From positions 1 to 64,000 of the IMG/VR virus record IMGVR_UViG_3300005613_000001: a stretch of 64,000 nt of DNA. One strand, given 5' to 3'. This stretch comes from a virus. The position numbers were made by a program, and so were the translations under genes. Of this stretch, positions 9,653 through 34,346 are shown piece by piece; the stretch's first letter is position 1; each line of letters opens with the position of its first letter. A model generated the notes under the pieces. That model was not told the DNA's origin. It saw only the letters and a list, made by a program, of their open reading frames with translations, and did not search any database.

Positions 9653-10627
9653 ATGATAAGAGATAAGATTTTAGGCATGTATTTAGGCACGCCCATTGGG
9701 GACATTCTAGGACTCCCTTTTGAAACTATGGAGTTTGGAACCTACGAGAGAGTTACGGATTATGGAGCTTGGGGAGTGCCTGTTGCGTGGTCAGATGATA
9801 CTCAATTTACTTTGGCTGTAACAAATTCTCTAATGGAATCCAGTGGGTTTGATATTAAATCACAGGCTCAATGGCATGTGAGAGCATATCAGGATACTAC
9901 TTTCGGTTGGGGCAGCACTACTAAATACTGCTGCCGGAAGTTATTAGAAGGTGTGCCCCCAACTGAAATGGAGTATGGGCAAACGAAGGGTACAGGCAAT
10001 GGAGTGGCTATGAAAATTAGTCCTATTGCTGCCTACATGCATTCCAATCGCCCAGGTCGCATTGGAATTAAAGAATATATCGTTCCTCTGGCCCAAGACA
10101 TTATTGACTTTTCTCGTATGACCCACCATTCGGCAGTATCAGCACAAAGCGGTTTAGCTCAAGTTGCTGCTGTGATGTATTGCTTATCTGTAGAGCCTGA
10201 TGAATTCTCTGCTGAGAGGTTCGTTGAAGAAGTTGTATTTGCGTCAGAGATTGGGCTTGAGCATCCTGAATTGACGGACGGCCCTGATCTTACAACAAGG
10301 CTCCGAATTGTTGACCGCCTCAAAGATTCTCCTCCTGAAGCGATTGTAGATGTATTTGGAGGCGGGACTTCATATGTTTATAATTCTTTACCTTTCAGTT
10401 ATGCGTTTTTCCTTCAGAATCCGCATAGCATTGAGAGTCTTTACGAGGTAGTTTCTGCGGGAGGCGACACAGACACTAACGGCGCTATTGTTGGTTGTCT
10501 TTTGGGCGCTCTTCACGGGAACAGAATCTTCCCAGATCATTTAATAGCTGGGATTCCATTAGCCGGTCTTGCGGAAATCAATGACATGGCTAATGCGTTT
10601 AATGATAAATTTTACAGCCGAGGCTGA
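9653..10627 (+). CDS. ADP-ribosylglycohydrolase family protein
   Basis: Removes ADP-ribose from modified proteins or hydrolyses ADP-ribose-linked substrates using two magnesium ions. The family motifs are visible: start IRDKILGMYLGTPIGDILG, metal-binding AWSDDTQFTLA near residues 43-53, GTGNGVAMKISPIAAYM, and the second metal site AGGDTDTNGAIVGCLLGALHG near 275-295. Length 324 is usual for the family. In this phage it may reverse modification by its own ADP-ribosyltransferase-like proteins or by host defences; this is inference. AATTGTAC follows its stop. Confidence 0.85.
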   Translation: MIRDKILGMYLGTPIGDILGLPFETMEFGTYERVTDYGAWGVPVAWSDDTQFTLAVTNSLMESSGFDIKSQAQWHVRAYQDTTFGWGSTTKYCCRKLLEGVPPTEMEYGQTKGTGNGVAMKISPIAAYMHSNRPGRIGIKEYIVPLAQDIIDFSRMTHHSAVSAQSGLAQVAAVMYCLSVEPDEFSAERFVEEVVFASEIGLEHPELTDGPDLTTRLRIVDRLKDSPPEAIVDVFGGGTSYVYNSLPFSYAFFLQNPHSIESLYEVVSAGGDTDTNGAIVGCLLGALHGNRIFPDHLIAGIPLAGLAEINDMANAFNDKFYSRG

Positions 10628-10634
10628 AAAAAGA

Positions 10635-10642
10635 AATTGTAC
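10635..10642 (+). promoter_or_regulatory. AATTGTAC element
   Basis: Begins 8 bases after the glycohydrolase stop and ends 44 bases before the phosphatase ATG at 10687, with CTGATTATAT in the -10 region. Confidence 0.55.
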
Positions 10643-10686
10643 GTTAAGGCAAAAGTGGGCTGATTATATGCGCATGAGGAGAACCA

Positions 10687-11466
10687 ATGGAGAAAATCAG
10701 TGGAAAAGTAGTCGCTGTGGGAGATATCCACGGTGAATATGATAAGATGAGAAGAATGCTGGCTTGTTTGGTTAGATACGAAATCTTAGATGATCGCTGG
10801 CTAGTATTGCTGGGTGATTATGTGGATATGGGACCGGACACAGCAAAGGTTATTGAATTTCTGGTTCGGTTTAAGAAAGAATATCATCCAAATACAGCAT
10901 TCATTTGTGGGAATCATGATCTAAACCTTATCAAAGCATTAGGTCTTGTTGATTCTCCCGAAGAGGTATTCTATCGTGGTCGAGTTCCTACAAGGAATCG
11001 GGATGTTCTTGTGTCATATGGTGCAAGAAATGTTGATGAATTGAAGGCCAAGATGCCCGATAGTCACAAGGAATTTCTAGCCAATTTAAATTGGGCAGTA
11101 GAACATCCTGATTATCTATTTGTTCATGTGGGGTTAGACCCAAATGAAAGTTATGAAGCCCAAGTAGAAGCTTTAGCGGAAAGAGATATGGTTCCGCACA
11201 AGCCGAAGTGGCTCTATAGAGATCATCTTTCATTTTCATCCCCGAGGACAGATAAGATTGTTGTCTCCGGTCATATGATTTTGAATGATGCTATTGGTTT
11301 CAATAACAGGCGGCTAATTGATACTGGTTGTGGCTATGGTGGTGAATTAACTGCCTTGCAATTGCCAGAAGATCAAATCATCCAGCCTGAAACCGATAGG
11401 AAGTTTGTGAGAAGCCCAATTCCAATGCGGGGAGAACCAGCAGCTTTTACTTGGGCACAGTTTTAA
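10687..11466 (+). CDS. PPP-family metallophosphatase, copy 1
   Basis: A calcineurin-like Ser/Thr protein phosphatase of the lambda phosphatase type. The metal ligands are all visible: AVGDIHGEYDKM (motif GDxHG), LLGDYVDMGPD (GDxVDxG), FICGNHDLNL (GNHD), a His in VHVGL and another in SGHMI. 259 residues, about the expected size. GAGGAG lies upstream of the ATG. A paralogue follows 11 bases later. With the kinase at 14125-15075 and histidine kinase at 17639 it could reset phosphorylation states in the infected cell, which is inference. Confidence 0.85.
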   Translation: MEKISGKVVAVGDIHGEYDKMRRMLACLVRYEILDDRWLVLLGDYVDMGPDTAKVIEFLVRFKKEYHPNTAFICGNHDLNLIKALGLVDSPEEVFYRGRVPTRNRDVLVSYGARNVDELKAKMPDSHKEFLANLNWAVEHPDYLFVHVGLDPNESYEAQVEALAERDMVPHKPKWLYRDHLSFSSPRTDKIVVSGHMILNDAIGFNNRRLIDTGCGYGGELTALQLPEDQIIQPETDRKFVRSPIPMRGEPAAFTWAQF

Positions 11467-11476
11467 AAGGTCAATA

Positions 11477-12220
11477 ATGAATGGTCCTGCGGTATTTATT
11501 GGTGATATTCATGGATATGTTGGATCGCTCCGCGCTTTGCTTGAGGCGTTGGGTGATAATCTGACAGATCGGTGGATTGTTTTCTTGGGAGACTTAGTTG
11601 ATAAGCGTGGCAATCCAAAAGAAACCATTGAAACGGTTATTAATCTTAGGGATCGCCACCCTAAAACTGTAGCTCTAGCAGGAAACCATGACCTTTCGTT
11701 TGCAAGAGCAATTGGCGTGTCTCCTGCTCCTGATAATTATTGGAAGGGAAGGTATTGCCGGGCAAGGTATAGCCGCCCCACTTTTCATTCCTATGGAGCA
11801 TCACACGGCGACTTGCATACATTGACTAGGTTGGTCCCAAAGAAGCACAAAGAGTTTCTGGCGAATATGCCGTGGTGTTTTGAACACGATGAAATTCTTG
11901 GTGTTCACGCGGGATTAGTGCCTGAAAGGCTGGTGCCCCAGGTAGAACTACCACATGGGACAACCCTGGACGAGCAATTGAGAATGTTGCGAGAACGTGA
12001 ATATTCAATTCAACGCCCGCCGTGGTTGCATTGCCAGGCGCTTTCTCACACAGATGTAAAGGAATATCCCAAATATGTAATTTCGGGACATAATACTACA
12101 TCTGAAGTTAAAATGGTAGGAAAACACATTCACGCAGATACGGGTGTAAATTATGGTGGAAAACTCTCCGCTGTGCTTTTCCCCGAGCTAACGTCAATTA
12201 GTGTTCCGCCTATCAATTAA
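11477..12220 (+). CDS. PPP-family metallophosphatase, copy 2
   Basis: Paralogue of the preceding gene: FIGDIHGYVGSL, FLGDLVDKRGNP (the usual DxG is D-K-R-G), LAGNHDLSFA, GVHAGLVPE, ISGHNTTSEV and ADTGVNYGGKL. All metal-binding residues are present. The copies have diverged strongly, so they probably act on different substrates. AAAGG precedes the ATG. A bidirectional-looking terminator follows. Confidence 0.83.
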   Translation: MNGPAVFIGDIHGYVGSLRALLEALGDNLTDRWIVFLGDLVDKRGNPKETIETVINLRDRHPKTVALAGNHDLSFARAIGVSPAPDNYWKGRYCRARYSRPTFHSYGASHGDLHTLTRLVPKKHKEFLANMPWCFEHDEILGVHAGLVPERLVPQVELPHGTTLDEQLRMLREREYSIQRPPWLHCQALSHTDVKEYPKYVISGHNTTSEVKMVGKHIHADTGVNYGGKLSAVLFPELTSISVPPIN

Positions 12221-12231
12221 GGCTAAAAGCT

Positions 12232-12267
12232 AAAAAACCTCATTTCCGATGGAAATGAGGTTTTTTT
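12232..12267 (+). terminator. Rho-independent terminator
   Basis: A 16-base stem (AAAAAACCTCATTTCC with GGAAATGAGGTTTTTT) and loop GAT, ending in seven T. The A-run on the 5' side would allow it to work in both directions. Confidence 0.9.
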
Positions 12268-12290
12268 ATTCGATTTATCTAAATAATAAT

Positions 12291-12878: not shown

Positions 12879-14132
12879 ATGTTTGGTTTTAAACTTTTTT
12901 TTGAAGAATCGGGTGTCCGCACTTTTAGTGATCCCCATGTCTTAAATGATACTACCATTGAGTTCCCAGGTGGATATGATTTAGAACCACAACAATTTGC
13001 TACCTATCACATTCCCCCTGAATTTCATGGTATGGTGATTCGTGATGTGATTTTAAATCACAAAAAGGGTCCACATGGTCATGGGGAACCTCATATGCGT
13101 TACGAAGAGGAAAAGAAGAAGTGGCGTGATTTCTACGGTTCATACAGCAAATTAGAAATGCATGATATGAATTCAGATAAGTGGGTAGCTTATAATCACG
13201 GTGGTCGGGATTATAAACACGCCGAATATCGCCCTTCTTGGGAGCCCGAAACTTTACACGATTGGATTTCAGAGGTTGGTAGGATTTCGCCTGATATGAT
13301 GAAAATTAGCAACCCAGGCAATCAACGTGCTAAGACAAATCCCATAACTGGCGAAAAGGTTGATCCAAACGACAAGAGAAGCACAGTAACAATAGGACCA
13401 ATTACAATTAGTTTCTTCGGCAAACAAGCCTTTGAGAAGAAAGAATATATCCAATGGACCTATTCCCCTGGTGGTACGCACGGCTCAACTAGATTCTCTG
13501 ATCTTGACAAAGGGGACCAACCAACTTACGGCACTTTCGGCATTGGATATTACCCCGGTGCTTTAGCATTATGGACAAACAGAAATCCCATTCAACGAGC
13601 CAAACCATATCACAACCCAGCCGTTCATAGACATATGCAAATGAAGCACTCAGGGATTGAGCAGGGTCAGTTGTTTGTTCCTGGCGATTCGGGTTATTTT
13701 GTGGATCGTAATGAAAAATCTGTACTCTATAGTTTAAAATATGATCCTAACAATGGACAAGGCACACATAACGTAAGAATGAAGAGAGAGGGAAATAACT
13801 CATTTAGAATTATGTTGCCGCCTAATACTTTCGGAAAGACCCTGGCAAGCATTGAACTAATGGTTGGTAAAAATATTGCTAGACCCTCTCAAGCCCCTCC
13901 TGGTAGTCAATATGATGATGGAACAGAAATGGCTAAGGTGGGTAAGATCAATAGTTCTATCCATGCCAACGTGGAAGGAAATACTGTTAAATTTAGGGGG
14001 CGGGAACATTCTATTGGTCCGGTAATCACAACAGCCGATTATCCTGGTGTTAAGATTGCTCCTGGCGATTCTGTTAGAGTATCGTCCAGCAACACAGCTT
14101 TTATTATGGCTTGGCGACTAGGCATTAGTTAA
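12879..14132 (+). CDS. Large unknown protein with capsid-targeting-like N-terminus
   Basis: Begins MFGFKLFFEES, the same pattern as 623, 8344, 12291 and 15075. The 417-residue body is rich in Gly, His and aromatic residues (KKGPHGHGEPHMRYE, GGTHGSTRF, GTFGIGYYPGALALW) and has no membrane segment, consistent with a beta-rich protein. I do not recognise a family. It starts directly after the kinase stop with GGAG upstream, so the two are co-transcribed, and it overlaps the convergent kinase gene by 8 bases. Confidence 0.68.
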   Translation: MFGFKLFFEESGVRTFSDPHVLNDTTIEFPGGYDLEPQQFATYHIPPEFHGMVIRDVILNHKKGPHGHGEPHMRYEEEKKKWRDFYGSYSKLEMHDMNSDKWVAYNHGGRDYKHAEYRPSWEPETLHDWISEVGRISPDMMKISNPGNQRAKTNPITGEKVDPNDKRSTVTIGPITISFFGKQAFEKKEYIQWTYSPGGTHGSTRFSDLDKGDQPTYGTFGIGYYPGALALWTNRNPIQRAKPYHNPAVHRHMQMKHSGIEQGQLFVPGDSGYFVDRNEKSVLYSLKYDPNNGQGTHNVRMKREGNNSFRIMLPPNTFGKTLASIELMVGKNIARPSQAPPGSQYDDGTEMAKVGKINSSIHANVEGNTVKFRGREHSIGPVITTADYPGVKIAPGDSVRVSSSNTAFIMAWRLGIS

Positions 14133-15075
14133 AGAAGTCTGTTTTAGTCGCAATATCTTCAAGAGACATCTTTAGAAGTAACTTTTTAATAAGCCCTAGT
14201 TGCTCAAATCGCTGATATAAGGTGGCTTGAACATCCCGAACATATTTTACACTTGGACGTTCTTTTACCTCTGATATTACCTCTCTAAAGATTTCATCTA
14301 CTGCTTTTTGTTGTGATAAGATATGATCTATTTGGGTGATTAAACCTTCATTGCGTTGCGCAGGTGGTAAATCAGGATTGCCGTGCATGCCGTGATGCTC
14401 AGTTTCTCCTGTATCTTGATTAACTTGTGGACCTAGAAGTTCTTTATTGTAGCGAATAGAGTGGTACAAATCACGAAGTTTAGGACCGAACCCCTTATCT
14501 GTTGCTCTGCGTCCCTCTCCATATCCTGTTCCTACTGGGGAATGCGGCCAACGATCCGCCCCGTGTGCTGTTTTTGCTAGACCAGATATATCAATTTGAT
14601 ATACTTTGCCTGTTTCTGGATCAACAATTGTATTTCCCGCATTCTTAATATCACGACTATCAAGGAATGCGTGAGCGACAGAAGCGGCATCAATAATTTG
14701 TTTGTTGGTTTTACGGATTTGTCCCCAATTTCCTTGGTTTAATAAACTTCTTATGGTGGGGTGTTGTCCAAAATCTTCCATAACGATGTAAAGTTGCCCG
14801 CCCGCATCTACTAAAGCCATCTCGGGAGCTTGAACACCTTCCATGCTTAGAGCGTTGAACAGTTTGGTGCCTAAATACTCAGAAACCGTTGCTTCCTCGT
14901 TGCGGTTCTTCTTGACCACAACGGTTTTCCCTGGATTTGAAGCTAATGGGGCGCGATAGATCGCCTCAGAGCCCATTCCGCCCAGCCGTTGCCCCGCTTG
15001 ATGGTCAATATCTTCCCATCGGAGGCTTTTAATGCTTGATTCTGTGAGGAAATACGATTTGAAGTTCAGTTCCAT
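14125..15075 (-). CDS. Protein-kinase-like protein with capsid-targeting-like N-terminus
   Basis: Starts MELNFKSYFLTES from ATG at 15075; the upstream in-frame ATG at 15090 lies within the CTAAATAA leader and is less likely. The kinase-like fold is suggested by a glycine loop GGMGSEAIYRA, VVVKKNRNEE (ATP-binding Lys), a hinge IVMEDFG, a catalytic-loop-like DSRDIKNAGNTIV, and a metal-binding QIDISGLAK. This order fits HipA / PI4-kinase-like atypical kinases. 316 residues. Placed against the transcription direction of its neighbours, so it has its own promoter. Substrate unknown. Confidence 0.62.
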   Translation of the reverse strand: MELNFKSYFLTESSIKSLRWEDIDHQAGQRLGGMGSEAIYRAPLASNPGKTVVVKKNRNEEATVSEYLGTKLFNALSMEGVQAPEMALVDAGGQLYIVMEDFGQHPTIRSLLNQGNWGQIRKTNKQIIDAASVAHAFLDSRDIKNAGNTIVDPETGKVYQIDISGLAKTAHGADRWPHSPVGTGYGEGRRATDKGFGPKLRDLYHSIRYNKELLGPQVNQDTGETEHHGMHGNPDLPPAQRNEGLITQIDHILSQQKAVDEIFREVISEVKERPSVKYVRDVQATLYQRFEQLGLIKKLLLKMSLEDIATKTDFFN

Positions 15076-15082
15076 AGAGTTA

Positions 15083-15090
15083 TTTAGCAC
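15083..15090 (-). promoter_or_regulatory. CTAAATAA box upstream of kinase-like gene
   Basis: Reading the - strand, TTGTGCTAAATAACTCT directly precedes the ATG at 15075, nearly identical to the sequence before 8344. No Shine-Dalgarno sequence is present. Confidence 0.4.
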
Positions 15091-15128
15091 AATTTCATCT
15101 TTTTCTTAACCCCCTCTTCAGAGGTTGC

Positions 15129-15156: not shown

Positions 15157-15171
15157 GTGAATAGGAATCGA

Positions 15172-15179: not shown

Positions 15180-15224
15180 CGGGAAGGGCTGTACCGCTTA
15201 ATTACTCGTTAATTAGGAGCCCTA

Positions 15225-17638: not shown

Positions 17639-18697
17639 ATGGACCTAAAACAATCGCTAGAAGAATTAACAGAGCGATATCATTTAGCGGTTTCAGGCAC
17701 GGATGCTGGCATATGGGATTGGGATTTAAGAAATAATGAAGTTTTCTTTTCTGATCGTTGGAAAACAATGATCGGATTTGAACCTAATGAAATTGGCGAC
17801 ACCTACATGGAGTGGGAGTCGCGTGTACATCCTGATGATTTGCCTGCCTGTTTGGCGGCAATTGATAATTACCTTGATGGGAAAACCAAAGAATACCACA
17901 TAGAGCATAGATTGCTATGCAAGAATGGGCATTATATTTGGATTTCTTCAAGAGGCGCAGCGCAGAGGGATGAAAATGGAAAACCCTACCGTTTTGTAGG
18001 CTCTCATCTTGATATTACAAAAGAAAAAAAGGCAGAGAGGGATTTGAAGGAACAGCATCATAGGCTACAACGTCTCTTGGAAGTGCAGGATAAAGAGAGG
18101 AAATTAGTTTCATATGAAATTCATGACGGGCTGGCGCAAGATCTGGCTGGTTTGCTGATGCAGCTAGAAAATATTGTGGGGAAGTGTAAAGGCTGTGAGG
18201 CTTATACATTGGTGCATAGTGCGAGAGACTTAGCCAAGAAGGCTTTTACAGAAGCAAGACAATTGATAGGTGATTTAAGACCACCTGTTTTAGATGATGG
18301 TGGTGCGATTCCCGCCATTTTGCAGGTTGTGGAAAATTTGCCTCTTGATGTTGAATTGAAACATAATTTTAATGGTGCTCGATTTGAGCCTATTTTAGAA
18401 AATAGCATCTTTCGCATAGTTCAAGAGGCAATACAAAATACAGCACAACATAGTGGTAGTAAGCATGCAGCCGTAGAATTGAATTTAGAGGGCGAAATTA
18501 TCATCATTAAAATCATGGATTGGGGCAAAGGTTTTGATGTAGAGGCAGAAGCAGATGGTCATTTTGGATTGATAGGCATTCGTGAAAGGGTAGAATCTTT
18601 CAGTGGTCAATGCAGTATTATGAGTAGCGAAAATGGAACCGGCATTACGATTACCCTTCCAGCATTAGGAGTTAAAAATGGAATATCCAAGGATTGA
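17639..18697 (+). CDS. PAS-domain sensor histidine kinase (HisKA_3 type)
   Basis: A soluble 352-residue histidine kinase. Residues about 12-127 form a PAS_3/PAC domain (AGIWDWDLRNNEVFFSDRWK ... WISSRGAAQRDENGKPYRFV). A coiled coil leads to a HisKA_3 dimerisation region with phospho-acceptor His162 in YEIHDGLAQDL. The ATPase domain has an N-box QEAIQNTAQHSG (Asn267), G1 MDWGKGFD and G2 HFGLIGIRERV, ending GTGITITLP. All catalytic residues appear intact. There is no membrane segment and no response regulator in the window, so it may phosphorylate a host regulator. Kinases of this kind are common in bacteria but unusual in phages. Confidence 0.88.
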   Translation: MDLKQSLEELTERYHLAVSGTDAGIWDWDLRNNEVFFSDRWKTMIGFEPNEIGDTYMEWESRVHPDDLPACLAAIDNYLDGKTKEYHIEHRLLCKNGHYIWISSRGAAQRDENGKPYRFVGSHLDITKEKKAERDLKEQHHRLQRLLEVQDKERKLVSYEIHDGLAQDLAGLLMQLENIVGKCKGCEAYTLVHSARDLAKKAFTEARQLIGDLRPPVLDDGGAIPAILQVVENLPLDVELKHNFNGARFEPILENSIFRIVQEAIQNTAQHSGSKHAAVELNLEGEIIIIKIMDWGKGFDVEAEADGHFGLIGIRERVESFSGQCSIMSSENGTGITITLPALGVKNGISKD

Positions 18698-19151
18698 TGT
18701 TACTGTAGATTTGGCTCTGTTTTCGCTAAACGAAAATGGGGATGTTCAAGTTTTGCTGATACGACGGGGCAAGGAACCGTTTAAAGGCTATTTGGCTATA
18801 CCGGGGGGATATCTCAATCCCAATGAATCACTTAAACAGGCGGCAGAACGGGAGTTATATGAAGAAACTCACACCGTCGCTGAGTGGGGGGCTGGAAAAA
18901 ATAAAGGAGGCGAAGTTTTTTATGTTGGGGTCTATGATGATCCCGACCGCGATCCTAGAGGCCGAGTAATTTCCCACCTTTTTGCCGCTTTCACAAAGGA
19001 GCAATTACCCGAAGCTGGTGATGATGCGGAAAAAGATTCTGCGCATTGGGCAAAATGTCCCATTGAAGAACCGATGGCGTTTGACCACCAAGATATGATT
19101 GGAAAAGCGTATCTTACACTTTTGGAGGCGGGGCAAGTTCCCGCAGGATAA
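18678..19151 (+). CDS. Nudix hydrolase
   Basis: The Nudix box is clear: GGYLNPNESLKQAAERELYE followed by ET, fitting Gx5Ex7REUxEExGU except that the last positions read EETHTV. Start MEYPRIDVTVDLALFSLNEN resembles ADP-ribose / NrtR-type Nudix proteins. It would hydrolyse a nucleoside diphosphate linked to another group, plausibly ADP-ribose, which would fit the NAD-related genes around it. 157 residues. It overlaps the histidine kinase by 20 bases. Confidence 0.85.
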   Translation: MEYPRIDVTVDLALFSLNENGDVQVLLIRRGKEPFKGYLAIPGGYLNPNESLKQAAERELYEETHTVAEWGAGKNKGGEVFYVGVYDDPDRDPRGRVISHLFAAFTKEQLPEAGDDAEKDSAHWAKCPIEEPMAFDHQDMIGKAYLTLLEAGQVPAG

Positions 19152-21136: not shown

Positions 21137-22129
21137 ATGCCTGATATTAAAGACGGCGAAGTTGTATATGTTCAAGGTTCAGCTAAAAAACCCTATGAAC
21201 TCAAGAATGTTGCAGGCGTATATAGTTGTTCGTGTATGTCTTGGCGAAACCAATCTCTGCCCATTGAGCGTAGAACTTGCAAGCATCTAAAGAAATATCG
21301 GGGCGAACAAGTTGAGTTTGCGCGGGTAGGCTCACCCCCTCCTAAAACTGCCAAAGTCAAGAAAAAAGAGAAGCCTCCGGTACTATTGGCTCACGTTTGG
21401 GAGAACGATATTGATTTAGATGGGTGGTGGATTAGTGAAAAACTTGATGGTGTAAGAGCATATTGGGATGGAGAGCAATTCTTGTCCCGAAATGGCAACG
21501 TCTATCACGCGCCTGATTGGTTTATTGCTAGTTTGCCAAAAGAGCCTCTTGATGGTGAATTATGGATGGCAAGGAAGTCATTCCAACGAACATCTGGAAT
21601 TGTACGGCGACATGACAAGAGCGAGCAGTGGCGGGAGATTAAATATCGTGTGTTTGATGTACCTGCGCAAGCTAATCCTTTTGAAGAGCGACAGAAGTAT
21701 CTTCATGAAATATTAGTTGGGCAAGGTTCGCACATTGATGTTTTGGAACAAATACAGTGTAGAGGTTTAGACCATTTGAGGGCAGAATTAGAAAAGGCAG
21801 AAGCGTTGGGTGCCGAAGGCTTGATGCTTCGCCAGCCCGCCTCTTTATACGATGTTGGGCGATCTAATACTTTGCTCAAGGTCAAGAGTTTCTATGATGC
21901 CGAAGCAACGATTATGGAGTACACAAGGGGTCGTGGTCGGCACAAGGGAACTGTTGGCGCATTGGTTTGTGTGGATTGCGAGACAGGTGTAGAATTTAAG
22001 GTAGGAACTGGTTTAAGTGATGCTGTGAGAAGGAATCCTCCTGCTGTTGGTACTAAAATTACTTACCGTTTCCAAGAATTAACGGATGGCGGAAAGCCAA
22101 GATTCCCCTCTTTTGTGAGGGTTGCGTAA
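21137..22129 (+). CDS. SWIM zinc finger fused to ATP-dependent DNA ligase
   Basis: 330 residues. The N-terminus has a SWIM finger, YSCSCMSWRNQ then TCKHLKKY (Cys31, Cys33, Cys48, His50). The adenylation domain follows with the lysine motif SEKLDGVRAYWDG (Lys102), SRNG, LDGELWMAR, GAEGLMLRQP and LLKVKSF. A C-terminal OB-like part has EYTRGRGRHKGTVGALVC and TYRFQEL. It seals nicks in DNA using ATP. One AATTGTAC occurs inside its coding sequence at 21598. The SWIM part may target it to DNA or a partner. Confidence 0.88.
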   Translation: MPDIKDGEVVYVQGSAKKPYELKNVAGVYSCSCMSWRNQSLPIERRTCKHLKKYRGEQVEFARVGSPPPKTAKVKKKEKPPVLLAHVWENDIDLDGWWISEKLDGVRAYWDGEQFLSRNGNVYHAPDWFIASLPKEPLDGELWMARKSFQRTSGIVRRHDKSEQWREIKYRVFDVPAQANPFEERQKYLHEILVGQGSHIDVLEQIQCRGLDHLRAELEKAEALGAEGLMLRQPASLYDVGRSNTLLKVKSFYDAEATIMEYTRGRGRHKGTVGALVCVDCETGVEFKVGTGLSDAVRRNPPAVGTKITYRFQELTDGGKPRFPSFVRVA

Positions 22130-22145
22130 GAAAGGATGAAAAATC

Positions 22146-23378
22146 ATGTCTGTAGGCAAAGGTTTTGCTTCTGGTTTTGGTGGTTGCCTGGGTGTGGGGT
22201 TTGCCATATTTTTTGTGGTAGTGATTTTGCCTATTGGGTGCTTAATGATAGTGGGTTCAAAATCGCAAAAACAATCAACACCAAAATTAGAGAAAAACGA
22301 AACCCCCGCCACCCTCCCCCAGCCGCGATTGAAGGTTTCAAATGATAAAACAGACGAAAATCCTGTACCGCTTCCTAAACATAAATATGTTGCATCATTT
22401 TCTGGAAGAAGTCAAATTAGGGCTGTAATTGATGATTACCCTTTGCGTGAACAGCAATGGAAAGAAATAGCGGTAAATTTATGTCACAATCGAGAACCTC
22501 ATGTTTTGGTGATGTTCTTTGATAATGAAACGGTTTTAAATGAGTGGGATGGATCGGGTTTATTAAAAGATCAAGATTGGAAATATTGGCTTTGTCGTAT
22601 TGCGGTTGATAATGGTGTTGCTGGAGATGTCAAAGTAGCCCAAAAAGAAGATGGAAACTTTCGTGACGATATAATTAAACAGAGTGATGAGGCTGACGTA
22701 AGCCGGAATGAAAGTGAATTATCTCAACCGGAACATGATTATCTTTCTTATCGTTTGCAAAATACTGGGAAAATACCACTTTTACATACAGGGGTAGTTG
22801 GTCGTCCTATTCAAATTGGAGATATAGGCGTTTTAACAAGGAATTCATCAGAACACACTTTCAGGGTAGACCAAATTATAGATAATGATGAAATGTTAAT
22901 TTTTGGTAATGAGTTTTGGATTAAAGGGGTGCGGACAACAAACCTAGTTGATAATTCCACGGTGGATTTGGGAAGTATAGTTTTCGTAGTGACGCAAAAC
23001 AAACAATACGCCACCGTGCTAGGTGCGAGTAAAACAGTTAGGTGTTTAACTGTATTGGACACTGATAACGCTGATCGGGCTTTTGAGGAAAAGTGGAGCG
23101 AAAAGGAAGAACAAGAGAGAAAAGCCGAGGAAAAAATAAGAAAGTTAGAACAAGAAAGATTAAAAAGAGAAGAAGAAGAGAGAATAAGACGAGAATCTGA
23201 AATTGAGGCGGCTAAATGGAGAATATGGACGAGCGTTGATGGCAAATATACAATTGAAGCAAAATTTCTAAAATACACTTTTGGCGAGGTACATCTTGAA
23301 AAGAAAGATGGAAGTGTGATTTCCATTAAGAAGGAACAACTTTCTAGTCAAGATTGGGAGTGGATAAAAAGACGATAA
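22146..23378 (+). CDS. Membrane-anchored protein with C-terminal SHD1-like domain
   Basis: 410 residues. A glycine-rich start leads into one membrane helix near residues 10-35 (GFAIFFVVVILPIGCLMIVG). A long middle part contains a thermonuclease-sized globular region. A glutamate/lysine/arginine coiled coil lies near 315-345. The end matches the SLA1-homology domain SHD1: RIWTSVDGKYTIEAKFLKY, EVHLEKKDGSVISI, QLSSQDWEWI. SHD1 is widespread in planctomycetes and rare in other bacteria, making it a host clue. Function unknown; likely an envelope protein. Confidence 0.7.
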   Translation: MSVGKGFASGFGGCLGVGFAIFFVVVILPIGCLMIVGSKSQKQSTPKLEKNETPATLPQPRLKVSNDKTDENPVPLPKHKYVASFSGRSQIRAVIDDYPLREQQWKEIAVNLCHNREPHVLVMFFDNETVLNEWDGSGLLKDQDWKYWLCRIAVDNGVAGDVKVAQKEDGNFRDDIIKQSDEADVSRNESELSQPEHDYLSYRLQNTGKIPLLHTGVVGRPIQIGDIGVLTRNSSEHTFRVDQIIDNDEMLIFGNEFWIKGVRTTNLVDNSTVDLGSIVFVVTQNKQYATVLGASKTVRCLTVLDTDNADRAFEEKWSEKEEQERKAEEKIRKLEQERLKREEEERIRRESEIEAAKWRIWTSVDGKYTIEAKFLKYTFGEVHLEKKDGSVISIKKEQLSSQDWEWIKRR

Positions 23379-23379
23379 C

Positions 23380-23412
23380 TTCACGACTTTTCCAAAGAAA
23401 TAAAGTCGTGAA
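23380..23412 (+). terminator. Hairpin after SHD1 gene
   Basis: TTCACGACTTT and AAAGTCGTGAA form a perfect 11-bp stem with an 11-base loop, two bases after the stop codon. There is no T-run, so it may stabilise or terminate the upstream message, or mark the edge of the inserted HNH gene. Confidence 0.5.
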
Positions 23413-23414
23413 TT

Positions 23415-23446
23415 CCCATATATAATCGTGGAGGATTATATATGGG
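23415..23446 (+). promoter_or_regulatory. Hairpin occluding the ribosome-binding site of the HNH gene
   Basis: CCCATATATAATC (23415-23427) is the exact reverse complement of GATTATATATGGG (23434-23446). The loop GTGGAG holds part of the Shine-Dalgarno sequence GGAGG, and the ATG at 23442 lies inside the stem. Messages that include the 5' arm would be translated poorly. Confidence 0.7.
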
Positions 23447-24167
23447 AAGAAGAAAAAAATTATCTAAAGGGCCGTGTGAAAATTGTGGGCTACGAGACCA
23501 TTTGCCTTGTTCATCTTTATGTCAAAAATGCAAAACCGAAAATATACGCAATTTTAGAAAAAATAGACTATCTCAAGGACTGTGTGCCGAGTGTGGTAAG
23601 TATCCACATTTACAGAAAAGGGTCAGGTGTCAAGTCTGTGCTGATAGATTAAAACAAAAAGATGCAATAAGGAGGGCTGAATGGATTGCCAAAGGGGTTT
23701 GCAAGAAACGCGGGTGTAATAATCCAATTGAAGACAATGTTCTGTGTAATGATTGTCGTGAAAAACAAAACAGCTATGTTAGACGCAGAAGAAAAAGGTT
23801 AAAAAATGAAGGGCTTTGTGAATCATGCGGTCAAAATACGGCTACAGGAAATCATTTGTGTGAGACTTGTTGGTTAAAGAAAGTCGCAGATAGACATTTG
23901 GGTAATAAAGACAAGTGGGTATTGTTAAAGGAAAAATTTGAATTACAAAATGAAAGTTGCCCATACACGGGAATTAAATTGGTTATTGGTGAAAATGCTT
24001 CTATAGATCATATTGTTCCTAAATCTTTGGGCGGTGCTAAAACGCTTGATAATATCCAATGGGTGCATATTTGGATTAATTTGATGAAATTTAACCTCAA
24101 GCATGAGGATTTTGTTGTAAAGTTTAGAGAGTTCATTCAATTGGTAAAGGAGTTTGAAAGTGACTGA
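23442..24167 (+). CDS. HNH homing endonuclease with zinc-finger array
   Basis: 241 residues. The N-terminal two thirds hold repeated CxxC pairs (PCENCG, LCQKCK, LCAECG, RCQVCA, LCNDCR, LCESCG, LCETCW). The C-terminus is an HNH nuclease: CPYTGIKLVIGENASIDHIV followed by PKSLGG and LDNIQWVHIWINLMKF. A free-standing mobile endonuclease that cuts DNA, probably to spread its own gene. It shows higher A+T and lysine use than its neighbours and sits between complete genes, so it is an intergenic insertion rather than intron-encoded. Confidence 0.85.
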   Translation: MGRRKKLSKGPCENCGLRDHLPCSSLCQKCKTENIRNFRKNRLSQGLCAECGKYPHLQKRVRCQVCADRLKQKDAIRRAEWIAKGVCKKRGCNNPIEDNVLCNDCREKQNSYVRRRRKRLKNEGLCESCGQNTATGNHLCETCWLKKVADRHLGNKDKWVLLKEKFELQNESCPYTGIKLVIGENASIDHIVPKSLGGAKTLDNIQWVHIWINLMKFNLKHEDFVVKFREFIQLVKEFESD

Positions 24168-25566
24168 AAACATTCTCTTACGGAGCGATAGTTACAAAGT
24201 AACCCACTGGCGGCAGTATCCGCCCGGTGCGGAGACTATTTATAGTTATTTTGAATCTCGGGGCGGGCGTTTTCATGATGTGGTGTTTTTTGGCTTGCAA
24301 TATTATCTTAAGCGTTATCTTCAAGGACAGGTTGTGACGCAAGAGAAAATCGAACAGGCTGATGAACTTTTCCGTCTGCACTTCGGGGATAAAGATGGAT
24401 ATTTGTTTAATCGTGCAGGTTGGGAAGATATACTTAATAGGTTTGGCGGTCGTCTTCCTGTTTCTATTAAAGCCCCGCTGGAAGGTTCGGTTATTCCTAA
24501 TCACAATGTTATGATGACTATTGAAAATACCGATCCTGCTTTCTATTGGCTTCCTAATTACTTAGAAACGCTACTTGTACAGACGTGGTACGCTTGTTCG
24601 GTTTCGACGCAATCGAGAGAAATGAAAAAGCTAATTCTTCGTTATCTTCGTAGTACCGGCGATCCTGAACAAGTTGGATTTAAGTTATGTGACTTCGGAT
24701 TTCGTGGAGTATCTTCTGTTGAAACTGCTGGTGTAGGTGGGGCCGCTCACCTTCTTAACTTCATGGGTACTGATACTTTTGAAGGAATTATGGTGGCGAG
24801 AGATTTTTACGGCGAACCAATGGCCGGATTCAGCATCCCAGCCGCCGAACACTCCACAATTACTTCGTGGGGTAGAGAAAATGAAATGGATGCGATGGAA
24901 AATATGATTACCCAGTTTCCGGCTGGTTTGGTTGCTGTGGTAAGCGATTCCTTCAATATTTATGAGGCGTGTCGAGATATTTGGGGCGACAAACTCCGCG
25001 ATAAGGTAATGGAGCGTAATGGTACGCTTGTTATTCGCCCCGATTCCGGTGATCCTGCTGGTGTTATTTGTGAGATTCTTCCCATCCTTGGGGAGAGGTT
25101 TGGATATGCAGCGAACGCAAAGGGTTACAAAGTTCTTGATCCTCACGTTCGGTTGATCCAAGGCGATGGCATTGATTTTGATATGTTAAATGCCATTCTT
25201 AAAGCAATGAAGCGGGCCGAGTGGAGTGCCGACAACATTGCTTTCGGTTCGGGCGGCGGTTTGCTGCAAAAACTAGACCGAGACACTTTGAAGTTTGCTT
25301 TCAAGTGTTCCAACATTCGGGTTAATGGTGAAGACCGCCCCGTTTATAAATCTCCCATTACGGACAGGGGCAAGCAGTCCAAGCAGGGACGATTGAAGTT
25401 GGTGAAGCTTACGGGATCGCACGGTTGGGTATATCACACTGTTCCCGAAGATGATCCTCGCCCCGATGAAATGGTAGAGGTTTTCCGTGACGGAGATATT
25501 CTAGTAGATCAATCATTTGCGGATATTCGGAAACGAGCGGAAATCCATGAGAGGGAATTAGGATGA
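24160..25566 (+). CDS. nadV: Nicotinamide phosphoribosyltransferase (NAMPT/NadV)
   Basis: Makes nicotinamide mononucleotide from nicotinamide and PRPP. About 468 residues, the family length. Motifs: SDSYKVTHWRQYPPG near the start, FKLCDFGFRGVSSVETAGVG, GTDTFEGI, SIPAAEHSTITSWG with the active-site His, TLVIRPDSGDP, LIQGDGID and AFGSGGGLLQKLDRDT. GTG 24160 is chosen because AAAGGAG lies 7 bases upstream; TTG 24154 is too close to it. With the CinA-NMNAT fusion at 27170 it completes a two-step route from nicotinamide to NAD+. Confidence 0.93.
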   Translation: MTENILLRSDSYKVTHWRQYPPGAETIYSYFESRGGRFHDVVFFGLQYYLKRYLQGQVVTQEKIEQADELFRLHFGDKDGYLFNRAGWEDILNRFGGRLPVSIKAPLEGSVIPNHNVMMTIENTDPAFYWLPNYLETLLVQTWYACSVSTQSREMKKLILRYLRSTGDPEQVGFKLCDFGFRGVSSVETAGVGGAAHLLNFMGTDTFEGIMVARDFYGEPMAGFSIPAAEHSTITSWGRENEMDAMENMITQFPAGLVAVVSDSFNIYEACRDIWGDKLRDKVMERNGTLVIRPDSGDPAGVICEILPILGERFGYAANAKGYKVLDPHVRLIQGDGIDFDMLNAILKAMKRAEWSADNIAFGSGGGLLQKLDRDTLKFAFKCSNIRVNGEDRPVYKSPITDRGKQSKQGRLKLVKLTGSHGWVYHTVPEDDPRPDEMVEVFRDGDILVDQSFADIRKRAEIHERELG

Positions 25567-25763
25567 AATTCAGGATGAATGTGAGAATCAAGGATTGTGA
25601 TAAGCAATTCCATGAAGATTTTCCGCCCGGTGTTATTGCTACACAGGATGTAGAATTAGAAGGCACAGAGGGCGCTTCCGAAACTCAATTGGCGATGGCT
25701 GTTATGGGACATTCAGAGCGTTTTCTTAATGAAACTGTAACTGTTGATATAATGGAGAGATAA
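25563..25763 (+). CDS. Small hypothetical protein
   Basis: 66 residues, ATGA overlap with nadV. Beta-type start (MKFRMNVRIKDCDKQF) and a helical middle (ASETQLAMAVMGHSERFL). The tight overlap suggests it is expressed with nadV. No family recognised. Confidence 0.6.
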   Translation: MKFRMNVRIKDCDKQFHEDFPPGVIATQDVELEGTEGASETQLAMAVMGHSERFLNETVTVDIMER

Positions 25764-25764
25764 A

Positions 25765-26225
25765 ATGCTTTGTTGTAGCGAACAAGAAGCCCCAATGGGT
25801 CTTGCGCGTTTCCCTAAGCAGCAAGTAATTGATGCTTGTAGGCACATGTTGAAGCATATTGCTGACACTCGTAGGAAAAAGCAGCGAAGGTCTATTAACC
25901 AAGAATTAGAAAAGCAATTACGGTCGTGGAAGCGTTTCTGGCGATGGCTTGGCATTCCTAAACCTACAAGAAGGAATGCAATTGACTGTTATCGCAATGC
26001 AAGACCAGCCGCACTGGGGTTCATTGTGATCTTTTCACTGACGGTTCGGGCAAATTTATAGTTGAAGCTCAAACTCTTTCAAACCGCCAAGATAGTCCTA
26101 CTGAAATATTAATCGCGTCAATTTTCACTGTTGAGTATAAATTTGAATTTAATTCTTTTGATGAAATTGAAGACGCATTTCAACGCGCACTAACGCATAG
26201 TCCAACACACCCAGAGTTATCATGA
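25765..26225 (+). pseudogene. Hypothetical gene split by a frameshift near 26016
   Basis: The first frame (25765-26061) gives a basic helical protein with RRKKQRRSINQELEKQL and WKRFWRWLGIPKPTRR, then ends in unrelated-looking residues. The following 160 bases hold an open frame without a start codon, in frame 0, reading CDLFTDGSGKFIVEAQT to its TGA at 26223, which overlaps the next ATG exactly as real genes do here. A single-base change in the GGGG run at 26016-26019 would join both into one protein of about 150 residues. It could be a programmed -1 shift, a mutation or a sequence error. Confidence 0.5.
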
Positions 26226-26545
26226 ACGATTTGCCCGAAAAAGAACTGAGAAAGATTGCCTTGGGCATCGCAGAGGGGAAGATTTTAACTTCCTCGCAAG
26301 TTGATGAAAACTCAATGACAATGGTGTTTATGCCTATCCTGTTTGGTGCTTTTGATGATATGTCAGAAGACGAGAGAATGAGGATCGGTTTCATTTACGA
26401 ATACATTGATAAAGCCGGTCCCCGTAGTATCAATGGCTATCCTATCTTTTGGAGTTTTGGGATCGTAAATCGCCCTGATGCTGAACGTATTGGGGAAATG
26501 GTAAAGGAAATTAGTGAGGCGAGAGAGGCTTATTTGGAGGGTTAA
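26222..26545 (+). CDS. Hypothetical protein
   Basis: 107 residues, mostly helical and acidic. Begins MNDLPEKELRKIALGIAEGK and has a hydrophobic centre (MVFMPILFGAFDDMSEDERM). The start overlaps the stop of the open frame ahead (ATGA). No recognised domain. Confidence 0.65.
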   Translation: MNDLPEKELRKIALGIAEGKILTSSQVDENSMTMVFMPILFGAFDDMSEDERMRIGFIYEYIDKAGPRSINGYPIFWSFGIVNRPDAERIGEMVKEISEAREAYLEG

Positions 26546-26547
26546 AT

Positions 26548-27093
26548 ATGGCTTGGATAATTCAATCTGCTGATGGGAAATCTTTTTGGGCTGGGAGGTA
26601 TTGGTACACGGACAAGAGTAGAGCAAAACGATGGAAGACTGCAAAAGGGGCAATCAACGCTAAAGTAAAATTAGTTTTGGACTCCCAACAACGTGACGTT
26701 TATTTCCGACGCCAGCAAGCTGAGGTAGATTTCCTAGAAGGTTTGACGGTAGTTGAAGTGCCTGATTTGGAAAAGAAGTTTAAGAAGAAGAAATTAACAA
26801 GTGAAGAGTGTACCGCTGTAAGGCGGAAAATAGCAGAAACCCTTGTAGCTCGCGGTTGGAAACCAAATAGGAAGTATGATAAAGAGATTGATGATTTAGG
26901 TTTTAGCCATAGGTGGTCGGAACATGGGTATTTGATTGACCCCGATGATCGCTTTGCTATCACTCTAAAATCACAAGTTCTGACTGTTCATGACGGGAGT
27001 AGGCAATTCTGTAAGGTCGTGGGAATGGGGTATAATGAAATCAAAATTAGGAAAAATGAGCTAGTATGTGGTAGGGTGGCTCTAAAGTTATGA
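26548..27093 (+). CDS. Hypothetical basic protein
   Basis: 181 residues, basic, with a lysine-rich linker (LEKKFKKKKLTSEE) between an N-terminal strand-rich part (AWIIQSADGKSFWAGRYWY) and a C-terminal part. Possibly nucleic-acid binding because of its charge. GGAGG lies upstream of the ATG. No family recognised. Confidence 0.65.
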   Translation: MAWIIQSADGKSFWAGRYWYTDKSRAKRWKTAKGAINAKVKLVLDSQQRDVYFRRQQAEVDFLEGLTVVEVPDLEKKFKKKKLTSEECTAVRRKIAETLVARGWKPNRKYDKEIDDLGFSHRWSEHGYLIDPDDRFAITLKSQVLTVHDGSRQFCKVVGMGYNEIKIRKNELVCGRVALKL

Positions 27094-27173
27094 AAACTCT
27101 AATTGAACTTATTTTCTTTTGCGGTGATATAGCTTTATTCATTATAGCCCTATGGGTCTTGGAAGTAATATGA
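27090..27173 (+). CDS. Very small membrane peptide
   Basis: 27 residues, MKTLIELIFFCGDIALFIIA followed by LWVLEVI, a single membrane helix. It overlaps both neighbours by four bases (ATGA at each end), which is the standard junction in this genome and supports it. Confidence 0.5.
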   Translation: MKTLIELIFFCGDIALFIIALWVLEVI

Positions 27174-28285
27174 ACAATCCCTTTGATGATATCCACGAAA
27201 GCCCCTACCGTGCTGTGATTGCTATTACAGGCGGCGGCAGCGAGGCTATCGGACGACTCCTACAATATGGAAACGCCTCTAAAACTTTATTAGAGGCGGT
27301 TGTGCCGTATCATCCTGGGGCTATGGATTCATTCTTAGGTTTCACCCCTAAGAAGTATTGTTCGGAAGAAGTGACTCGCCAATTAGCCGTTGCCGCTTAT
27401 CGTCGGGCAATGGAGCTAACAGGTGAAGATAATGATAATTATTTGTGTGGGCTTGCGCTAACAGCAAAGTTGGTGAAACCCGATGGAGAACGAGAAGGTA
27501 GAGTGCATGAGATTCACGTTGCCTTCCACAATTGTTATAAAACTGTCTATCAAAAACTCACACTGACAGTCCCCAGAATTCGCTTCTTTGAAGAGCAAAT
27601 TGCCTCTACGATGTTGTTAAATCTATTGAGGCGGGAGACTACAGGCGTTGAGGAAATTTTGGATATTGAGGAAAACATTGAAGAAATCAGCAAAGGCCCT
27701 GATTCTACAGAAACTTGGCTCAAATTTGACAGTAAGCCCAAATCCGATTGGGCTATCCCATCGGAAAAAGAAACTACTTTAATTTTCCCTGGTTCATTCA
27801 ATCCCTGCCATAAACAGCATGTGGAGCTTGCTAAAGTAGCATTCAAAGCAACAGGGCAGCCAGTACGGTTTGAAATTGCTCTAAAGAATGCAGCAAAGCC
27901 GCCTCTAGATCATATTGATTTAGCAGAACGGGTTGAAACATTGCGATCTTATCAGGATGAAGAGTGGTTTGGTGGCGTTGTTACAACTAATACGCCTCTT
28001 TTTAAAGAGAAAGTAGTATTATTCCCCGGATGTACCTTTATTGTTGGTTCGGATACGATTAATCGTATTGCTGACCCCATTTATTATCGCACAAAACTTG
28101 AGGCGGTTGCGATAGCACAGTTCTTTGTAGAACACAAAATTAAATTTTTGATTTATCAGCGGAAGGATGTTCCTATCTCGGACGCTGTGTTAGCCAATAA
28201 GAATTTTGAGGCGTGTTGTCAGATTGTGGAAGGGTATGAAGACGACGGTACTTCAAGCACGGAGATTAGAAATGGCGTGGACTAG
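27170..28285 (+). CDS. CinA-like domain fused to NMN adenylyltransferase
   Basis: 371 residues. Residues 1 to about 165 form a CinA/PncC-type domain (AVIAITGGGSEAIGRLL, ASKTLLEAVVPYHPGAM, YCSEEVTRQLAVAAYRRA). The second half is a nucleotidylyltransferase: LIFPGSFNPCHKQHVELA with the GxFNPxHxxH signature and GTSSTEIRNG with the ISSTxxR-type motif near the end. The latter would join NMN and ATP to NAD+. The CinA half may deamidate NMN or bind ADP-ribose, but catalytic residues cannot be confirmed by eye. ATG 27170 overlaps the upstream stop (ATGA). Confidence 0.87.
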   Translation: MNNPFDDIHESPYRAVIAITGGGSEAIGRLLQYGNASKTLLEAVVPYHPGAMDSFLGFTPKKYCSEEVTRQLAVAAYRRAMELTGEDNDNYLCGLALTAKLVKPDGEREGRVHEIHVAFHNCYKTVYQKLTLTVPRIRFFEEQIASTMLLNLLRRETTGVEEILDIEENIEEISKGPDSTETWLKFDSKPKSDWAIPSEKETTLIFPGSFNPCHKQHVELAKVAFKATGQPVRFEIALKNAAKPPLDHIDLAERVETLRSYQDEEWFGGVVTTNTPLFKEKVVLFPGCTFIVGSDTINRIADPIYYRTKLEAVAIAQFFVEHKIKFLIYQRKDVPISDAVLANKNFEACCQIVEGYEDDGTSSTEIRNGVD

Positions 28286-29174: not shown

Positions 29175-29183
29175 GAGAAAATT

Positions 29184-30400: not shown

Positions 30401-30410
30401 AGGAAGTAAA

Positions 30411-31191: not shown

Positions 31192-31233
31192 TTGACTGGA
31201 AACAGCGGAAATATACCCCAGATAGGGAGAAAA

Positions 31234-32079: not shown

Positions 32080-32276
32080 TGAGCGACTACCCTTTCCGAC
32101 CACCCGATTCAGCACCCACTCCTGGTGGCTGTCTGTTTAAACTGGCAGGCATTGTCATACTTGGGGCGCTTGTATATTTCCTACTTCCGGCAATTATTTT
32201 GTTTTGCATTGGATTTGGGATTTATTTGTTGTGGGCTTGGGCTTGGGCTATAGCAAAAGCCTCAACAGAGAGGTAA
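32079..32276 (+). CDS. Small membrane protein
   Basis: 65 residues with a proline-rich start (YPFRPPDSAPTPGG) and two adjacent membrane helices (LAGIVILGALVYFLLPAIIL, FCIGFGIYLLWAWAWAI). TAATG overlap with the previous gene. Confidence 0.65.
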   Translation: MSDYPFRPPDSAPTPGGCLFKLAGIVILGALVYFLLPAIILFCIGFGIYLLWAWAWAIAKASTER

Positions 32277-32280
32277 TAGA

Positions 32281-33072
32281 ATGAGAAGAGGCACACAAGA
32301 CGTTTGCACTTATACAGACGACGATGGCAATTTTGTTGGCATCTGTTGTGGCTGGGATTATACAGCCGAACATGAGTGGGGAATTAAGGGAATTCAACGA
32401 CAATTAGGGATACGATGGGAAGAGGAAGGTCTTTTTGGCTTAGACCGTCGTAAAATCAATAATCCCCCGCCTAATTTGTCGCTTACTAAAGTTGGCGACA
32501 CCACTTATCTTGTTTGTCATTCAGACAATTGGGATGGTTCCCTTTGCTCACACGATAAGGAAGAATTAAAGATTTATGATTTTGAGGGAGCTAAACCCAA
32601 TGCGGGGGCATGGGATGCTGATGCTTGGGGATTTGCAACGACTGTCCCTGAAGTCGCGGAACAATTAAAAGAACTTGCAGAGGCATTACAACAGGGTGAC
32701 GGGGCAGTTTATTTGGGTGGCATGTCGGATAATCCTTTTGCGAGAAATGGTTTGTGTATTGTTATAGCCTCTCGTCTTCCACAAGATGTTATTGAGTGTA
32801 TGTCTAAGGTTGATGAAACCCAATACAAACTTGAAGAGGCGGTAAAGAAAACAGGGATAGAAGATCAATTAAAAGAGGCGGGCTTACGTTATTATGCCTT
32901 AAAGCCTGCTTGGAAGACAGAGTTAAAAAGGACAAGCTTGGAAGACACCGAGCATCCTGTTGTATTCTTCCTTAACCCCCATGAACAAAAGCAATATGCT
33001 GCTGGTTGGTTTACGGTAGAACAGTTGCAAGAGTGGATCAGGGGAGAAGGGCCGGTGATTAAAAGTGAGTGA
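32281..33072 (+). CDS. Hypothetical phage protein
   Basis: 263 residues. N-terminal region VCTYTDDDGNFVGICCGWDY and WGIKGIQRQLGI, of a type I associate with conserved uncharacterised phage proteins. The middle is Gly/Asp-rich (SDNWDGSLCSHDKEE), with an end reading PVVFFLNPHEQKQYAAGWFT, often seen where the chain closes a beta sheet. Function unknown. Confidence 0.65.
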   Translation: MRRGTQDVCTYTDDDGNFVGICCGWDYTAEHEWGIKGIQRQLGIRWEEEGLFGLDRRKINNPPPNLSLTKVGDTTYLVCHSDNWDGSLCSHDKEELKIYDFEGAKPNAGAWDADAWGFATTVPEVAEQLKELAEALQQGDGAVYLGGMSDNPFARNGLCIVIASRLPQDVIECMSKVDETQYKLEEAVKKTGIEDQLKEAGLRYYALKPAWKTELKRTSLEDTEHPVVFFLNPHEQKQYAAGWFTVEQLQEWIRGEGPVIKSE

Positions 33073-33322
33073 CCAATCAGGTTTTGGTAATGGGCCTAAA
33101 AAGCCAAAGATGGTACGCAAAGAGGAATTGCGCAAGAAACCATCTAAATTAAAAAAAGATGATACGACAACTTGGAGAGCAACCGAATACAACAATCGTC
33201 AAGAGGGCTGGTTTGATGGCCCCGATGGTTGCTTAAATGGTTGTTTAGTTTTTGTTTGTTGTTTTATTTTATTTGTTGTTTTGATAGCTTTTTGTGGTGG
33301 TGCCGGTAGCGGCTCATTTTAG
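33065..33322 (+). CDS. Small tail-anchored membrane protein
   Basis: GTG start overlapping the previous gene. 85 residues, basic N-terminal half (KKPKMVRKEELRKKPSKLKK), then one cysteine-rich membrane helix (NGCLVFVCCFILFVVLIAFC) and a short glycine-serine end. Confidence 0.6.
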   Translation: MSDQSGFGNGPKKPKMVRKEELRKKPSKLKKDDTTTWRATEYNNRQEGWFDGPDGCLNGCLVFVCCFILFVVLIAFCGGAGSGSF

Positions 33323-33330
33323 GAGAAATC

Positions 33331-33681
33331 ATGAGTTTGCATTTATCTACTTCAATCGGTTTCGTTTTAACTTTTGTCTTGTTATTTATGCTTTCGCCTA
33401 CTGTGCGAAAAGAGGCAAAAGCAACTATTAGTGAGTGGGGCGATGCTTGGGCTAGGGCTTTTAAGCGCCGATCACCCACGGTGTATCGAAGGCAATCATC
33501 TACCGAACAACTTCTTAATGAATTCGTGGCGTTGGTGGACAAGTATGATGTAGAATCTCCTTATGTGACGGCATTTCTTGAAGAGCATAAGGAAAACGAA
33601 GCATTTATTCAGCTTACTGGGAAAGCTGAACTACTTCAACAGGCTGTGGAATTGCGAAAACCCGGTGCCGACAAGAGTTAA
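33331..33681 (+). CDS. Small N-anchored membrane protein
   Basis: 116 residues. A membrane helix at residues 8-25 (IGFVLTFVLLFMLSPTVRKE) is followed by a soluble helical part (TEQLLNEFVALVDKYDVESP). AGGAG lies upstream. Role unknown. Confidence 0.65.
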   Translation: MSLHLSTSIGFVLTFVLLFMLSPTVRKEAKATISEWGDAWARAFKRRSPTVYRRQSSTEQLLNEFVALVDKYDVESPYVTAFLEEHKENEAFIQLTGKAELLQQAVELRKPGADKS

Positions 33682-33689
33682 AGAAAGCA

Positions 33690-34346
33690 ATGAAATTATA
33701 TCATGGGACCGCTTTACGTTTTAAGGATGGCATTCTACAAGACGGGATAGAACCCCGAGGCGATGTAGATAGTAACTGGGATGCGCACCCAAGTAGGCCG
33801 GATTTGGTTTATTTGACTGTGGCGTATCCCTTTTATTTTGCGCTCTGTGCCGCCGAGAAAGAGCCTTTGTTGGTATTTGAGATTGATAGTGAGAAATTAG
33901 ATCAATCTCTTTTCCTCCCCGATGAAGACTTTATCGCACAAGTTATCTCCCAACAACAGAAAAAGCCTTTGGAAGAGATTCATCCGAGAGTGGTAGAATC
34001 TTTAGAGAGTTGGCAAGATCTTTGGGAAAAGAGCTTAGAGGGATTGGGAAATTGCTCTTACAAGGGCAGGATTCCGGCTGAAGCCATTACACGATATTGT
34101 GTATTTGACACTAAAGAGAGGCCCGAGATAGCACTGATGATGGCTGACCCATCTATCTCTATTATGAATTATTTCTTTGTTGGTAAAAGGAAGTATGTGC
34201 CTTTGGTAGAGTGGATGTTTGGTGATAGAGAGTCTATTCCTAATGAGTTTGAGGGGTTTGATCTTGTGGGAGTAATGGAAGACCAAATTAAATTTTGGCA
34301 GGAGGAATCTAAAAAGCGTAATGGGATCACAGTATGTACCGTATAA
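33690..34346 (+). CDS. ADP-ribosyltransferase / KptA-like protein
   Basis: 218 residues. MKLYHGTALRFKDGILQDGI carries the His-Gly-Thr motif, DLVYLTVAYPFYFAL the Tyr-containing strand with its following helix, and CSYKGRIPAEAITRY the third motif region (S-Y-K-G-R-I-P). This is the same plan as 623-1762 but without the extra N-terminal part and without the capsid-targeting-like peptide. It would use NAD+ to modify protein or nucleic acid. Activity inferred from the fold. Confidence 0.65.
   Translation: MKLYHGTALRFKDGILQDGIEPRGDVDSNWDAHPSRPDLVYLTVAYPFYFALCAAEKEPLLVFEIDSEKLDQSLFLPDEDFIAQVISQQQKKPLEEIHPRVVESLESWQDLWEKSLEGLGNCSYKGRIPAEAITRYCVFDTKERPEIALMMADPSISIMNYFFVGKRKYVPLVEWMFGDRESIPNEFEGFDLVGVMEDQIKFWQEESKKRNGITVCTV

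Follow-up and report, generated by a model that had tools for sequence, protein, structure and literature searches.

The question raised by this locus is whether a giant bacterial virus rebuilds NAD+ from nicotinamide by means of a nicotinamide phosphoribosyltransferase (NAMPT) and a protein in which a CinA-like domain is fused to an adenylyltransferase. The window, that is the whole stretch of 64,000 nucleotides analysed here, opens a virus record of 527,112 bases (positions 1-64000), in which a terminase large subunit is also encoded. A first-pass annotation had described in this window a NAMPT, the CinA-adenylyltransferase fusion, a Nudix hydrolase and an ADP-ribosylglycohydrolase, and the four genes were confirmed (Table 1); the frame of the fusion starts at 27152, the start annotated at 27170 being an inner methionine. 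A PADLOC search returned nothing useful for the NAD+ gene set. In the promoter scan, promoter-like sites were fewer than in shuffled sequences and the excess of terminators was only modest. Elsewhere in the window, the minus strand encodes a full-length ClpX ATPase (62715-63998, above the curated cut-off) and a CehA/McbA-type metallohydrolase (57194-58192).

Table 1. Features of the NAD+ gene set and ADP-ribosyltransferase candidates, in positions of the window or, for the PRPP synthetase, of the record.
Feature	Position	Strand	Evidence or remark
Possible ADP-ribosyltransferase, HGT...YLAT...YA protein (pattern by eye only)	623..1762	+	phrog_13493, unknown function, 4e-7
ADP-ribosylglycohydrolase (DraG/ARH family)	9653..10627	+	PF03747 1.1e-43; PDB ADP-ribosylglycohydrolase 5.9e-16
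Stand-alone Nudix hydrolase, NadM-Nudix/NrtR type	18678..19151	+	NUDIX 1.3e-17; probable ADP-ribose pyrophosphatase
NAMPT	24154..25566	+	start codon TTG (24154) or, as first annotated, GTG (24160)
CinA/PncC-like and NMN/NaMN adenylyltransferase-like fusion, 377 aa	27152..28285	+	CTP_transf_like 8.5e-8; fold matches; motifs
Fusion, CinA/PncC-like half (residues ~15-165)	27194..27646	+	aligned with PncC; Thr26 and Met58 in place of the Ser/Lys pair
Fusion, HIGH-type nucleotidyltransferase half (residues ~210-375)	27779..28276	+	Pfam stretch 211-374; family profile against S. aureus NadD 8.9e-7
Possible ADP-ribosyltransferase-superfamily protein (LYHGT...VYLT)	33690..34346	+	viral relatives; faint profile match
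PRPP synthetase, full length, outside the window	69345-70316	-	TIGR01251 1.1e-69 (above cut-off); PDB 3.8e-49

The NAMPT product matched NCBIfam PRK09198 (2.4e-180), NAMPT_N (1.9e-37) and PDB NAMPT (2e-153), and the match to the family and to solved NAMPT structures spans its whole length. The active-site motifs SDSYKVTH, DFGFRGVSS, NFMGTDTF, EHSTITSWG and IRPDSGDP are intact, as is PAAEHSTITSWG, and these motifs are largely kept too in eight viral relatives. In another viral sequence (IMGVR_UViG_3300035698_003877, L029:9995-13285), the NAMPT frame (1096 aa; 64% identity with that of the window) contains two intein-like inserts, one just before the EHST motif and the other within the RPD/SGDP motif; the terminase of this contig carries an intein-like insert as well.

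The fusion gene lies 1.6 kb downstream of NAMPT, with four small genes between them. Pfam CTP_transf_like covered only the second half of the protein, in which both nucleotidyltransferase motifs, GSFNPCHKQH and SSTEIR, were found. An AlphaFold model of moderate quality was built from 14 sequences (mean pLDDT 74, pTM 0.48). By Foldseek, the first half matched CinA (6mr3, 2.5e-7; 2a9s, TMt 0.71) and the second half matched NadD/NMNAT proteins (1kaq, TMt 0.66; 1nup, 0.54). In the family profile search, the second half was likewise assigned to NadD and the first half to CinA weakly (0.7); Pfam CinA was reported in 3 of the 14 members of the fusion family, the best of them at 3e-5. Unlike phage NadM, the fusion has no Nudix domain, the Nudix being a separate gene in the window, and unlike NadR it has no P-loop riboside kinase domain detectable by Pfam, NCBIfam or the fold search. 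Three further HIGH-type nucleotidyltransferases of the record were considered as the real NMN adenylyltransferase and rejected, being HldE-like and RfaE/g3p-cytidylyltransferase-like. Since these look like sugar-nucleotide enzymes, no NMNAT candidate other than the fusion was found in the record.

Phage NAD+ synthesis has been described as NadV, a NAMPT, plus NadM or NadR (PMC9503650), and the later name NARP2 for the phage NAMPT-NMNAT counter-defence is mentioned in PMC12028318. The window resembles salvage by NadV with NadM-Nudix or NadR (PMC9503650, PMC7824862) in that NAMPT is near an NMN-adenylyltransferase-like gene and that a NadM-type Nudix and a source of PRPP are present in the same genome. 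It differs in its adenylyltransferase, which is a CinA-like fusion, whereas only NadM and NadR are listed in PMC9503650. Among ten close viral NAMPT loci, eight have a NadM-Nudix gene (341-392 aa) within about 3.5 kb of NAMPT, suggesting that the slot of NadM is taken here by the fusion. The remaining two are a short locus with neither enzyme and the 85.9-kb viral contig G005, in which the CinA fusion is encoded 2.3 kb from NAMPT, on one strand. G005 and the window share NAMPT (56%), the fusion (36%) and almost nothing else; the viral status of G005 is that of its IMG/VR listing, and the one terminase family searched in it was absent. The recurrence of the pair in so dissimilar a contig indicates that the NAMPT-fusion pairing is probably functional. 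The adenylyltransferase in the NadM slot of the window and G005 would be a third kind within the known phage NAMPT-NMNAT pathway.

The first-pass annotation had regarded the fusion as a variation on the simple two-gene pair. This view holds, although the fusion itself is already a cellular architecture; an invention specific to phages was ruled out by its presence in archaea and Planctomycetota. Full-length relatives were found in Methanolobus and other Methanosarcinaceae and in Planctomycetota (22 of 247 sampled archaeal-group genomes and 6 of 294 sampled Planctomycetota genomes). These cellular proteins have the same full-length architecture as the window fusion, at 34-41% identity, and the family alignment of 14 sequences is co-linear over the full length, with 30 invariant columns across both halves. 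A single-sequence scan of viral contigs returned no fusion relatives; an alignment-based scan found them. The tree placed the window fusion beside the Methanosarcinaceae group; support was modest (86/81) and branches were long, so that the direction of transfer was not decided.

Contrary to the window virus, three fusion-bearing cellular genomes, the three tested, gave no NAMPT, and none was detected in the huge phage LR745208 (485 kb), in which the fusion is present. The fusion may thus have a role of its own; in the literature searched, no described cellular function of the CinA-like/nucleotidyltransferase fusion family was found. On a 102-kb viral contig, a PRPP synthetase is encoded within a few kb of the fusion. 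In LR745208 (L002:9941-14186), 2 kb separate the fusion from an ATP-dependent DNA ligase whose cysteine-rich, SWIM-like N-terminus resembles, by eye, window positions 21137-22129. This suggests a common neighbourhood between that region and window 21137-28285.

The best NCBIfam match of the Nudix hydrolase was the Nudix half of NadM-Nudix (7.5e-16), and it is 37% identical to a viral NadM-Nudix over 146 aa (E 4e-21). As it is of the NadM/NrtR kind and encoded separately, the two functions of NadM are apparently divided between two genes. In window 17639-19151, the Nudix gene shares 20 bases with a gene for a PAS + HisKA_3 + HATPase sensor kinase. Both metal-site motifs, WSDDT and GGDTDT, were found in the ADP-ribosylglycohydrolase, right after which two adjoining genes (10687-12220) look, by eye on their translations, like calcineurin-like phosphoesterases. 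Outside the window, RtcB, a Phage_30_3 protein and a cpYpsA SLOG protein are encoded at 72-77 kb of the record, the last two (PF08010 and PF12694; 75554-77164, minus strand) lying near RtcB and the PRPP synthetase; SLOG domains have been discussed alongside NAD+/ADP-ribose systems (PMC9503650). A protein with two LuxR-like segments, recognised by eye, is encoded at 80016-81107.

The genes described above, their domains and motifs and the linkage that recurs define an NAD+ set which, in our judgement, quite probably serves phage NAD+ salvage (reconstitution), with PRPP, Nudix and ADP-ribosylglycohydrolase steps feeding into the NAMPT-fusion pair. From family membership, NAMPT would convert nicotinamide and PRPP into NMN, the adenylyltransferase half of the fusion would convert NMN and ATP into NAD+, and the PRPP synthetase would supply PRPP. 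From ADP-ribose, the NadM-type Nudix would yield AMP and ribose-5-phosphate; the ADP-ribosylglycohydrolase would free ADP-ribose from modified targets, so that breakdown products of NAD+ could re-enter NAD+. With the PRPP synthetase completing it, a closed route would run from nicotinamide and ADP-ribose to NAD+, provided that flux follows the cycle as drawn. The two-step conversion of nicotinamide to NMN and NAD+ that had been proposed at first is well supported by the conserved motifs and by the recurrent viral NAMPT-NMNAT linkage.

By analogy with described phages, the countering of NAD-depleting defence is plausible as the likeliest benefit. The same enzymology could have another purpose, the general metabolic provisioning of a very large phage with NAD+ and PRPP for replication and nucleotide metabolism, and no specific counter-defence. 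In favour of this are the huge genome, its wealth of genes for metabolism (HldE-like, PRPP synthetase and further nucleotidyltransferases) and the DNA ligase of the window, which is of the ATP type and has itself no need of NAD+. Phage NAD+ synthesis has however been reported to restore NAD+ against NADase defences (PMC12774641, PMC13232231), and such a restoration was proposed for NadV/NadM/NadR (PMC9503650). Provisioning as the sole purpose is possible, if rather doubtful.

A second alternative concerns the substrate: the fusion would act on NaMN or another nucleotide instead of NMN, and NAMPT would feed the NMN adenylyltransferase of the host. By sequence, the nucleotidyltransferase half is nearest to NadD, the NaMN-preferring enzyme, its closest solved relatives being NadD enzymes, and the fusion is not regularly accompanied by NAMPT, as seen in LR745208 and the three cellular genomes. 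On the other hand, dual-specificity NMN/NaMN adenylyltransferases are also returned by the fold search, and the fusion stands in the NadM slot next to NAMPT in two dissimilar viruses. We consider this alternative unlikely and keep NMN as the predicted substrate.

The first half of the fusion was examined for the activities that had been suggested for it, NMN deamidation and action on ADP-ribose. PncC has a Ser/Lys catalytic pair, located in the ESCTGG and YSNxxK motifs. The N-terminal halves of the fusions were aligned with three PncC proteins from the retrieved loci. At the position of the serine, most fusions have Thr (Thr26 in the window) and a few have Ala or Ser; at the position of the lysine, the window fusion has Met58 and none of the sampled fusions has Lys, so that the complete pair is lost in all of them. 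NMN deamidation is not expected because this pair is missing, and the deamidase was rejected on that ground. An active deamidase, channelling NMN via NaMN into the deamidated route, would agree with the CinA/PncC fold and with the few Pfam CinA matches in the family, but it would also weaken the direct route from NAMPT to NMNAT if no NAD synthetase participates; we regard it as very improbable. A role as ADP-ribose pyrophosphatase is that of a different CinA domain, COG1058 (PMC3680494), and this domain is not part of the fusion. The CinA-like half, which shares the fold of PncC/CinA and lacks both the catalytic pair and the COG1058 domain, is a PncC derivative, most likely with a structural, NMN-binding or regulatory role.

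Identity with NARP1, the ADP-ribose pyrophosphate route in which the NAMPT would be Namat and the PRPP synthetase Adps, is highly unlikely and was rejected on the Namat motif: the genome does contain a NAMPT-superfamily enzyme and a PRPP-synthetase homologue (substrate loop DDMISGGST), but the NAMPT loop, GSGGGLLQKLDRD, is of the Nampt type and departs from the Namat consensus and selectivity motif, GSx..TRD with aromatic residues (PMC12774641), the PRPP synthetase lies more than 40 kb from NAMPT on the opposite strand and fits the ordinary family, and the window set, unlike NARP1, includes an adenylyltransferase. Because its loop is Nampt-like, the window NAMPT is expected to use PRPP.

The active use of NAD+ that had been ascribed to the phage rests on ADP-ribosyltransferase calls ranging from weak to unsupported. 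The protein encoded at 33690 has seven viral relatives (40-51%) and no match in Pfam or NCBIfam; its family profile faintly matched, in the N-terminal part only, RNA 2'-phosphotransferase (KptA/Tpt1, 0.0017) and DarT1 (0.063), and its structure model (pLDDT 43) was too poor for a meaningful fold search. The call at 623 is weaker, no further match to this protein being found in Pfam or NCBIfam beyond its PHROGs family, and no relatives when these were sought. The third call, at 8344 (frame 8275-9396), was left unsupported; Pfam, PHROGs and NCBIfam gave no match. A similar start, F[KR]x[FY][LMF], was seen in four proteins of the window, at 623, 8344 and 12879 on the plus strand and 14125-15090 on the minus strand (MNFREFL, MTFKEYM, MFGFKLFF and MELNFKSYF, respectively); this pattern has 10 matches in about 31,000 aa, four of them N-terminal. 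Such a start resembles the capsid-targeting leader of T4 internal proteins, and these four proteins may be virion-packaged.

Taken further, the salvage reading leads us to propose, tentatively, that viruses may use a third kind of NMN adenylyltransferase, in which a catalytically dead PncC-like domain would sense or channel NMN or ADP-ribose, and that the methanogen and Planctomycetota family may be an unrecognised NAD+-making enzyme acquired by phages in place of NadM. If this is true, a third type of adenylyltransferase would be added to phage NAD+ salvage, and the cellular fusion family would receive a testable function. It would also explain how a relative of an NMN-consuming deamidase domain comes to sit on an NMN-using enzyme. 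Searches for counter-defence limited to NadM or NadR would miss pairs made of NAMPT and the CinA fusion.
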